Assembly (NCBI RefSeq): GCF_023100725.1
Contig: NZ_CP095501.1
Coordinates: 1,984,001 to 2,048,000 of the forward strand
Direction: 5' to 3'
Length of the DNA stretch: 64,000 nt
DNA from: Arthrobacter antioxidans
Lineage (GTDB): Bacteria; Actinomycetota; Actinomycetes; Actinomycetales; Micrococcaceae
Shown here: piece after piece, positions 45,024 to 47,817 of the stretch
Layout: each line of letters opens with the position of its first letter
How positions within the stretch are numbered: position 1 is the first letter of the stretch
Position numbers and translations under genes: made by a program
Notes under the pieces: generated by a model
Seen by the model: the letters and a program-made list of their open reading frames with translations, nothing else
Told to the model about the DNA's origin: nothing
The model's database searches: none

Positions 45024-47522
45024 TCAGGCGGGGACGATGTTGACCAGCTTGGGCGCGCGCACGATGACCGTCCGAACGCCGCGGCCGTCCAGGACACGCT
45101 GCACCTGCTCGCTGGCCAGCGCCAGCTCGCGGAGGGCGTCCTCGTCGATGTCCGGCGAGACCGTGAGGCGGTCGCGCACCTTGCCCTGCACCTGCACGAC
45201 GGCGACGACGGAGTCCTGCGTCAGCAGGCCCGGGTCGACGACGGGCCAGCCCGCCGTGGCCACGGTCGCCTCGTGCCCGAGCCGCTCCCACAGGTCCTCG
45301 GCCGTGTAGGGCGCGAAGAGCCCGAGGATGACGGCGACGGCCTCCGCCGCCTCGCGGACGGCCGGATCCCCGCCGCCCACCCCGGAGTCGATCGCCTTCC
45401 TCGTCGCGTTGACGAGTTCCATCAGCTTGGCGATGACGACGTTGAACTTGTTGGCCTCCATCAGCTCGGAGGCGTCGGCGACCGTCCGGTGGGTCACGGA
45501 GCGCAGCGCCCGGTCACCCGCCGACGGGTCCGCGCCGACGGCGCTCGTCACGTCGCCGCCGAGCCGCCACGCGCGGGCCAGGAACTTCGCGGAGCCCGAC
45601 GGCGAGACGTCCGCCCAGTCGACGTCGTCCTCCGGCGGCGAGGCGAACACCATGGTGAGCCGGACGGCGTCGACACCGAAGCGGTCGAGCTGCTCGCCGA
45701 GATCCACGCCGTTGCCGAGGGACTTGCTCATCGCCTTGCCACCGTTGAGCACCTGGCCCTGGTTGAGCAGCGCGCTGAAGGGTTCCGTGAAGGAGACCAT
45801 GCCCAGGTCGAACAGGACCTTCGTGAAGAACCGGCTGTAGAGCAGGTGGAGGATGGCGTGCTCGACGCCGCCCACGTACTGTCCCACCGGCAGCCAGCGG
45901 TTGACGGCCTCGGTGTCGAACGGTGCGGTGTCCAGGTGGGGGTCGATGAAGCGCAGGTAGTACCAGGAGGAGTCCACGAAGGTGTCCATGGTGTCGGTGT
46001 CCCGCCTCGCGGCGCCTCCGCAGGACGGGCATGCCACGTTGACCCATTCCTCGACGGCGGCCAGCGGCGAGGTGCCCTTCGGGGCCAGGGACTCCCCCCG
46101 GAGTCCCTCGGGCAGCGTGACCGGCAGCTGCTCGTCGGGGACGGGGACCTCTCCGCAGGTGGGGCAGTGGATGATCGGGATGGGCGTGCCCCAGAAGCGC
46201 TGCCGCGACAGCAGCCAGTCGCGCAGCCGGTAGTTGATGGTGTGCTCGCCGGTGCCCTGCGCCTCGATCAGGTCGACGGCGCGGCGGATGGCGGTCGCCT
46301 TGTCCAGGCCGGTCAGTTCCCCCGAGTTGACGAGGGTGCCCTCGCCCGTCGTCGCGATCCCGGTGGCGGCGGCGTCCTCGGCGCCGGTGTCGACGACGGT
46401 GCGGACGGGCAGGTCGAAGGTCCGTGCGAAGTCGAGGTCGCGCTGGTCGTGCGCGGGGACGGCCATGATCGCGCCGGTGCCGTAGTCGGCCAGCACGTAG
46501 TCCGCCGCCCACACGGGCAGCTTCTCGCCGTTGAGGGGGTTGACGGCGTACCGTCCGGTGAAGACGCCCGTCTTCTCCCGCTCGGTGGCCTGCCGCTCGA
46601 TCTCCGAGAGCCCCTTGACCTGCTCGCGGTACGCGTCGAGGGCGGCGCGGTGCTCCGGGGTGACCAGCTCGAGCGCCAGGTCGGCGTCCGCCGCGACGAC
46701 GAAGAAGGTGGCCCCGTACAGGGTGTCGGGTCGCGTCGTGAAGACGGCGACGTCGGTGTCCGGAAGATCGCCGTCGGCCCCGATCCGGAAGCGGACGTGG
46801 GCCCCCTCGGACCGGCCGATCCAGTTGCGCTGCATGGCGAGCACGCGCTCCGGCCAATGGCCCTTGAGCTGGTCCATGTCGTCGAGCAGGCGGTCCGCGT
46901 AGTCCGTGATCTTGAAGTACCACTGGTTCAGGCTCTTCTTGGTGACCAGGGTCCCGCAGCGGTCGCAGGCGCCGTTGATGACCTGCTCGTTCGCCAGCAC
47001 CGTCTGGTCCTTCGGGCACCAGTTCACCGGCGAGTCCCTGCGGTACGCCAGGCCCTTCTGGAAGAACCGCACGAACAGCCACTGCGTCCAGCGGTAGTAC
47101 TCCGGGTCCGAGGTGTGCAGCCGGCGGTCCCAGTCCGCGCTGATCGCGTAGCGACGGAAGGAGTTCGCCTGGGTCTCGATGTTCGCGTACGTCCACTCGG
47201 CGGGGTGCGCGTTGCGCTTGATCGCCGCGTTCTCGGCCGGGAGACCGAACGAGTCCCAGCCGATCGGGTGCAGGACGTCGAAGCCCTTCTGCCGGTAGAA
47301 GCGCGCCGCGACGTCGCCCATGGCGAACGCCTCGGCGTGGCCCATGTGCAGGTCGCCCGACGGGTAGGGGAACATGTCCAGCACGTAGCGCCGCTCGCGC
47401 GACCCGTCGTCGGCCGGGGCGAACGCCTGGAGCCTGTCCCAGACCGCCGGCCACTTCGCCTCGATGGCCGTGAAATCGTAGGTGTTGTCGTCCGGCTGAG
47501 CGACCTCGGGGTTGCTGCTCAC
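45024..47522 (-). CDS. leuS: Leucyl-tRNA synthetase
   Basis: Class I synthetase attaching leucine to tRNA-Leu, 832 residues. HIGH-type motif in [17 protein letters not shown]-type motif in [10 protein letters not shown], a CP1 editing domain (about 220-410, with [12 protein letters not shown]) and zinc-type cysteines in CPTCGEVP / [11 protein letters not shown] 47522 matches the conserved N-terminus; the open frame upstream is leader. The 197-base leader before it carries a leucine-rich leader peptide and terminator. Confidence 0.96.
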
Positions 47523-47640
47523 TGTATCTTGGCCTGTCCTGTCGGTGGAACGTGGTTCTGCGGTGATGCGTCGCCGTCCGGCTCGTGCTGCGCCCCGGCG
47601 GCCGCTGGCGGCGACGGGGACGGTCCCTGCGCCGGACACA

Positions 47641-47668
47641 CAAAAGCCCCTCGCAGACGGGAGGGGCT
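47641..47668 (-). terminator. Intrinsic terminator in the leuS leader (putative attenuator)
   Basis: On the minus strand AGCCCCTC (47661-47668), an 8-base loop, GAGGGGCT (47645-47652), then TTTT overlapping the stem end. It lies 118 bases before leuS and 24 bases after the leader-peptide stop: a terminator inside the leuS transcript. Confidence 0.7.
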
Positions 47669-47669
47669 G

Positions 47670-47693
47670 GCCGCACGGCGGAAACCGTGCGGC
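47670..47693 (-). ncRNA. Pause/attenuator hairpin of the leuS leader
   Basis: Perfect 8-bp arms (47685-47692 with 47671-47678), extendable to nine bp with the last base of the leader-peptide stop codon (47693), and a 6-base loop. It ends two bases before the terminator stem. A ribosome at the stop codon would cover the first arm. Confidence 0.55.
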
Positions 47694-47719
47694 TACGTAA
47701 GGAGCATGGCGCGCAGCAT
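47693..47719 (-). CDS. leuS leader peptide MLRAMLLT
   Basis: ATG 47719 opens an 8-codon ORF ([11 protein letters not shown] at 47693-47695) with three leucine codons, CTG, CTC and CTT, the last rare at this GC content. The -10 TAAAGT lies exactly six bases upstream, so the transcript likely begins with this codon. Confidence 0.6.
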
Positions 47720-47725
47720 GCCTTC

Positions 47726-47731
47726 ACTTTA
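47726..47731 (-). promoter_or_regulatory. -10 element of the leuS leader promoter
   Basis: TAAAGT, with an extended TG one base earlier, on the minus strand. A weak CGGACA -35 at 47750-47755. Confidence 0.55.
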
Positions 47732-47773: not shown

Positions 47774-47817
47774 GAGGGGATCCCCGGTCCGTCGGACGAC
47801 GGACCGGGGATCCCCTC
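47774..47817 (-). terminator. Hairpin terminator of glpK
   Basis: Perfect 20-bp stem (47774-47793 with 47798-47817) around a 4-base loop, 12 bases after the glpK stop. Very stable, though no T run follows. Confidence 0.75.

Follow-up and report, generated by a model that had tools for sequence, protein, structure and literature searches.

A probable leucine attenuator in front of leuS in Arthrobacter antioxidans and its relatives, with conserved codons and stems and no antiterminator signal

The window analyzed here, a stretch of 64,000 nucleotides of the Arthrobacter antioxidans genome, contains the gene for leucine--tRNA ligase, leuS, and on the same strand upstream of it glpK, which ends about 110 bases before a short leader element that lies in front of leuS. 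The element and the gene consist of the following parts:

45024..47519, minus strand: leuS, leucine--tRNA ligase, the presumed regulated gene (TIGR00396, 964 bits against a cutoff of 548)
47731-47726, minus strand: -10 element TAAAGT, six bases ahead of the ATG
47719-47693, minus strand: putatively leaderless leader ORF, ATG CTG CGC GCC ATG CTC CTT ACG TAG
47699..47704, minus strand: candidate control codons CTC CTT
47701-47699, minus strand: CTT, the candidate gate codon at a fixed distance from the stem
47693-47670, minus strand: hairpin 1, 9 bp, GCCGCACGG/CCGTGCGGC, which includes the G of TAG
47693-47685, minus strand: strand 1 of hairpin 1, GCCGCACGG
47678-47670, minus strand: strand 2 of hairpin 1, CCGTGCGGC
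47668-47645, minus strand: intrinsic terminator stem-loop, 8 bp, AGCCCCTC/GAGGGGCT
47645-47636, minus strand: interrupted U-tract, TTTTGTGTGT

A preliminary description of this DNA had placed the -10 element six bases before the leader ORF and a hairpin in contact with its stop codon, and both readings are borne out on the minus strand, with a 9 bp hairpin that shares the G of TAG. The terminator that it reported is also there, but the distance to leuS, given as 118 bases, was measured as 117 bases when counted from where the U-tract ends, and 126 from the end of the stem, to the GTG at 47519 with which leuS starts. Hairpin 1 and the terminator are separated by 1 nt in the window, and the unmasked fold of the RNA from 47620-47719 consists of just these two hairpins, with a stability relative to shuffles of z -2.66. 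The U-tract is retained among Arthrobacter relatives. The leader ORF is probably leaderless, with its ATG as the presumed 5' end of the transcript.

A long inverted repeat lies 3' of glpK at about 47775-47816 and is probably the glpK terminator. Among 28 relatives with the leader, for which about 1.1-1.4 kb of upstream DNA was examined, glpK is upstream in only seven, which indicates that the element travels with leuS. An Rfam scan of the 64 kb returned no family at gathering score, and T-box is absent among the 19 Rfam matches at E<=10 around the leader; 16 of these weak matches fall on the glpK repeat, one falls within leuS, and the other two, M23 and L31-Coriobacteria, lie over hairpin 1 on the plus strand.

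To assess the distribution of the element, we scanned 80 named leuS loci with a pattern that demanded a -10 and two Leu codons, and 30 of the 80 show the same arrangement. The remaining 50 have no such leader by the pattern, although at least four of them are short of upstream DNA, and the short ORFs at four of the 80 loci were dropped by eye as lacking hairpins. A covariance model, R1, was built from 26 of these leaders, excluding the window and containing no Streptomyces rows. With this model the window scores 68.4 bits (E 6.4e-14 for a search of its own genome), and there are matches in 182 of 296 genomes of the class and 84 of 115 genera at E<=0.01, a total that does not consist of leuS leaders alone, since some of the weak matches lie before cimA or ilvB; at E<=1e-8, as counted from the table, 106 of the 296 genomes have matches. 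Within the family R1 matches 63 of 120 genomes and 18 of 32 genera, and among the genomes listed it matches all six of the window's genus.

The preliminary description had linked a leucine leader to leuS, and the relatives uphold this link: leuS is the next gene in 95 of the 96 relatives' leaders opened, and the remaining one is at a contig end. By sample, leuS follows at 29 of 29 best class loci, at 27 of 27 family loci, at 20 of 20 weaker family matches and at 19 of 20 further class matches (E 4.5e-13 to 9e-9), the twentieth being the one at the contig end. A -10 of the form TAnnnT, ending 6-8 nt before the start codon, is present in all 87 leaders compared, of which 30 had been chosen with the -10 pattern, the window by the preliminary description and 56 via the RNA model; a control window 20 nt further up contains it in one of 87. 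The same -10 is present in 38 of 40 additional model matches. The peptide MRAVRLLLSEPR is encoded without any change by five of the 29 class leaders, which presumably belong to Streptomyces. One genome has a pair of leuS-like genes, both of them preceded by a separate leader of the leuS type. A Glutamicibacter leuS leader that the patterns missed, MNSQHNLA, has one rare CTA Leu codon followed by a hairpin and a terminator.

Within the leader peptide, codons 2-4 drift, but the Leu codons that adjoin the stem are retained in relatives, whose peptides read, for example, MRAILLLS*, MRRALLLT* and MLRALLLT*. Most close relatives have Leu at codons 5, 6 and 7; in the window, codon 5 encodes Met and codons 6 and 7 remain CTC CTT. 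Of the three Leu codons (CTG, CTC and CTT) to which the preliminary description drew attention, CTC and CTT stand, but the CTG at codon 2 lies outside the conserved run and is not conserved as Leu. The codon located 8 nt before the stem, here called the gate codon, is CTT in 81, CTA in five and CTG in one of the 87 leaders. In 12 genes, namely leuS of ten relatives together with leuS and glpK of the window, CTT accounts for 14 and CTA for none of 754 Leu codons. One of the leader lists had required CTT, but a pattern without this demand returned the same 30 leaders, and thus the CTT count is not an artefact of the filter. CTT is the gate codon in 19 of the 20 further class matches as well. In the 20 weaker family matches the gate codon is CTT in eight, CTA in five and CTG in two, and by our rule there is no Leu at that place in five, three of which have a CTT nearby. 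Some members of the family use CTA rather than CTT as gate codon. A need for the bases UU in the gate codon was considered and rejected, because one genus has CTA, and the choice therefore looks like one of a rare codon rather than of the bases UU. Judging from these comparisons, the codon that matters is probably the rare Leu codon whose position is fixed.

The stems are conserved as RNA structure. In the 26 aligned leaders 93.4% of 438 cells are paired, and double changes occur in 10 of 17 pairs; the covariation score, 0.291, exceeds the 0.128 of shuffles and was reached by 0 of 500 of them, a comparison in which related sequences may also exceed shuffles. Hairpin 1 contributes 89.5% of its cells paired and double changes in six of 10 pairs, and the terminator 98.9% and four of seven; when the 3' partners are shifted by 1-3 columns, pairing falls to 40-52%. 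Two Actinomadura leaders, for instance, have ACCAC/GTGGT in place of GCCGC/GCGGC. The position of the stop codon varies, with TAG before the stem in 51 of the 87 leaders and TGA three codons later, in the 5' arm of the stem, in 32. Since the stop codon is free to change and the pairing is kept, the stem is maintained as RNA whatever its coding. The comparison with relatives that the preliminary description proposed thus came out in its favour, the Leu codons being kept and the stems preserved through compensatory changes, and from the aligned sequences we conclude that the leader is under selection in its codons, its hairpin and its terminator.

A related scaffold precedes other genes. Among 20 lower-ranked R1 matches that were opened, 18 from the class search and two from the window's own genome, 12 lie before a citramalate synthase gene (cimA; the assignment comes from TIGR00977 for the one cimA scanned), three before ilvB, one of these in the window's own genome, and four before leuS. 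The one remaining match, near glnA by eye, is probably a mere terminator. Two second R1 matches in the family also precede ilvB. The window's own genome has a related ilvB leader at 2321227-2321351 (minus strand) with Val, Ile and Leu codons, the last of which, CTT, is spaced from the hairpin as in the leuS leader. A second model, R2, built from 12 cimA leaders, matches 146 of 197 genomes at E<=0.001, a count in which leuS leaders are included, and finds the window's own leader at 41 bits (E 4.8e-9). We opened the 30 top R2 matches and 18 selected from lower ranks; of these 48, 44 are before cimA, two before ilvB and two before another gene, which in one case scores as threonine ammonia-lyase, below the curated cut-offs, and in the second looks alike by eye. 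The leaders of these ilvA-like genes share the scaffold and contain one Ile codon only, ATT. The fold test was given 42 of the 44 cimA loci and yielded 40 results, as two folded as one domain. Measured without regard to reading frame, the closest Ile codon to the stem in these 40 leaders lies 7-11 nt before it and is ATT 25 times and ATC 15 times, and the hairpin is 0-1 nt from the terminator.

We then compared the leuS leaders with three E. coli attenuators, thrL, leuL and trpL, as controls for an antiterminator. Of 60 leuS leaders, 57 entered the fold tests, the other three being left out because they have no terminator by our rule or have diverged; the distance from hairpin 1 to the terminator is at most 2 nt. 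When strand 1 was masked and the RNA cut before the 3' arm, upstream pairing of the terminator 5' arm rose to 0.60 (from 0.03) in leuL and to 0.71 (from 0.29) in trpL, and did not change in thrL (0.53 vs 0.56), a control that gives a clear signal in the duplex-energy test only. The median in the 57 leuS leaders was 0.14 masked and 0.19 unmasked, or 0.32 with five more bases masked, and pairing above 0.4 was found in eight leaders masked and nine unmasked. Folds of partial transcripts compared with shuffled arms gave z -1.28, -2.77 and -3.14 for thrL, leuL and trpL, and a mean of z +1.15 for the leuS leaders, with 0 of 57 below -1. Duplexes between the upstream RNA and the 5' arm gave z -2.1 to -2.4 for the three E. 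coli leaders and a mean of z +0.24 for the leuS leaders (four of 57 below -1); with the 3' arm the leuS mean was z +0.54 (three of 57 below -1), and z -0.04 over the whole unmasked leader (seven of 57 below -1). Strand 2 pairs with the terminator loop with a median probability of 0.39 over the 57 leaders, and with up to 0.97 in single leaders; neither with that loop nor with the 5' arm of the terminator does its pairing exceed that of shuffles in the leuS leaders. The equilibrium fold with strand 1 masked does not discriminate, because the terminator persists in the leuS leaders and likewise in the E. coli controls.

No signal of an antiterminator exclusive with the terminator was therefore obtained in the 57 leuS leaders, some of which may have a weak pairing between strand 2 and the loop, and as far as these folds can tell a textbook antiterminator leaves no trace in them. 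Nor was an antiterminator signal found in the 40 cimA leaders (mean z +0.17, two of 40 below -1). The preliminary description had held that the element possesses just the parts that ribosome-mediated attenuation needs, which the lack of an antiterminator signal in 57 leuS leaders, with E. coli trpL and leuL positive, does not sustain; its doubt as to the mutual exclusion of two adjacent hairpins was well placed. Codons, hairpin and terminator are selected, but the classical link between them was not found.

The same description considered the coupling of a leucine leader to synthetase expression as not commonly described, which is only partly right: attenuators of leuS, with antiterminators, were predicted in S. 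avermitilis and S. coelicolor (Seliverstov 2005, PMC1262725), and a leuS leader, LeuL2 (SLIV_24828), was mapped in S. lividans TK24 in 2021 as leaderless from RNA-seq, with the peptide MRAVRLLLSEPR (PMC8079986). LeuL2 shares with the window's element the gene, a leaderless short ORF, three Leu codons, a hairpin and a terminator. R1, which has no Streptomyces rows, recovers leaders encoding a peptide identical to that of LeuL2, the match being via these leaders and not the S. lividans record itself; the element in the window shares this model, lies directly upstream of leuS and has a short Leu ORF with a -10 six bases off. The two differ in that the ORF of the window stops at TAG after LLT, whereas the Streptomyces ORF continues with SEPR into the hairpin. 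With regard to cimA, whose Ile leaders occur in many genomes of the class, we found no description of an attenuator in one open literature library, and none appears in Table 4 of the S. lividans paper (PMC8079986). For the antiterminator that was claimed in 2005, the present tests detect no signal. According to the 2005 text, mutation of the control codons in the ilvB leader of S. coelicolor was without effect and leuA departed from classical behaviour (PMC1262725), results which speak against simple attenuation in this group and fit the missing antiterminator. Thus, attenuators of leuS had already been proposed in Streptomyces, and their mechanism is less settled than the name suggests.

Other known systems resemble the leader in part. 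With the classical attenuators it has in common a leader ORF with Leu codons and an intrinsic terminator before the gene. E. coli leuL is likewise a leucine leader with rare Leu codons (CTA four times), but it shows an antiterminator signal and precedes biosynthesis genes, whereas the element in the window is probably leaderless, precedes a synthetase gene and shows no such signal. That rare Leu codons make a leu attenuator more sensitive is reported for Salmonella, where a change of CUA to CUG in the leu leader reduced sensitivity (Carter 1986, as cited in PMC1183508). For Corynebacterium ilvB-II an attenuator with a uORF and an antiterminator was proposed, and a reporter was higher in minimal than in rich medium (PMC10272879). 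This motif also has a uORF with branched-chain codons, a P1 hairpin and a terminator, P2, before a branched-chain gene, but its uORF spans most of P1 and its proposed antiterminator pairs the P1 loop with the terminator 3' arm (PMC10272879); in the leuS leaders neither arm of the terminator shows excess upstream pairing. T-box leaders sense tRNA charging before synthetase genes. The leuS leader differs from them, as there is no Rfam match at gathering score and sensing would use a translated ORF.

Taken together, we regard the element as, in all probability, a cis-acting leucine attenuator of leuS. Transcription would begin at or beside the ATG, and a ribosome would translate the leaderless ORF at once. 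With ample Leu-tRNA the ribosome would reach the stop codon and depart, hairpin 1 would form and the adjoining terminator would stop most transcripts. When Leu-tRNA is scarce, the ribosome would wait with the rare CTT in its A site. A ribosome with a codon in the A site covers about 13 nt onward from there, and given the spacing of CTT this footprint would end on the CCGC of strand 1. The leading edge of the stalled ribosome, to about 47689, would therefore cover the CCGC of hairpin 1, as the fixed spacing suggests; hairpin 1 would be blocked, and RNA polymerase would read into leuS more often. Most likely termination is aided by hairpin 1 itself, which lies no more than 2 nt away from the terminator, and we would guess that this occurs by stacking or otherwise.

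A classical attenuator whose antiterminator was missed, because it competes kinetically with the terminator, for example through strand 2 and the loop (GCGCGG with CUGUGC), is a less likely though possible alternative. In its favour, antiterminator hairpins are asserted for two Streptomyces by the 2005 paper (PMC1262725). With masking of strand 1, the five MRAVRLLLSEPR leaders show a mean upstream pairing of the loop of 0.41-0.80 and other leaders values of up to 0.97, and eight of 57 leaders have a 5' arm paired above 0.4. As equilibrium folds retain the terminator even in the E. coli controls, the energy comparison is no argument against this alternative. What does oppose it are the shuffle tests, where the mean z values of the leuS leaders are +0.78 and +0.37, +1.15 and +0.76, and, masked, +0.24, +0.54 and +0.83, and the E. 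coli controls do show an excess, as well as the spacing, because 2 nt or less between hairpin and terminator leave almost no loop.

That the leader and its terminator act as a constitutive brake or as a small RNA, with Leu codons that do not act as leucine sensors, seems improbable to us. It would agree with the predicted persistence of the terminator with the ribosome placed at or near CTT (57 of 57 leaders with the ribosome at CTT and likewise one or two codons earlier, 56 of 57 one codon past it) and with the mutated ilvB leader codons without effect in S. coelicolor (PMC1262725). However, a Leu codon stands beside the stem in 87 of 87 leaders despite drift at codons 2-4, this retained codon is usually rare, and the cimA version of the scaffold has Ile codons instead; the weaker family matches, less strict on the gate codon, soften this case. 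We give very little credence to the idea that the hairpins merely insulate leuS from glpK read-through, for which one can cite the end of glpK about 110 bases upstream on the same strand: glpK has its own inverted repeat at about 47775-47816, it is upstream in only seven of 28 relatives with the leader, and neither a promoter nor an ORF is needed for such a role.

Probable leucine attenuators of leuS, earlier predicted for a few Streptomyces, thus extend to strong matches in about a third, and some matches in over half, of 296 genomes of the class. More tentatively, Actinomycetes may possess one attenuator scaffold with exchangeable codons (Leu before leuS, Ile before cimA and the ilvA-like genes, mixed branched-chain codons before ilvB) and no antiterminator, in which a stalled ribosome would stop the abutting hairpin from forming and from stacking on the terminator. 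Read in this manner, the scaffold would consist of a leaderless ORF, a control codon, often rare, about 7-11 nt before a GC hairpin, and a terminator no more than 2 nt from that hairpin. If it is true that the abutment of the hairpin alone gates termination, this would be a simpler design than the trp paradigm, and one that could be re-targeted through its codons.
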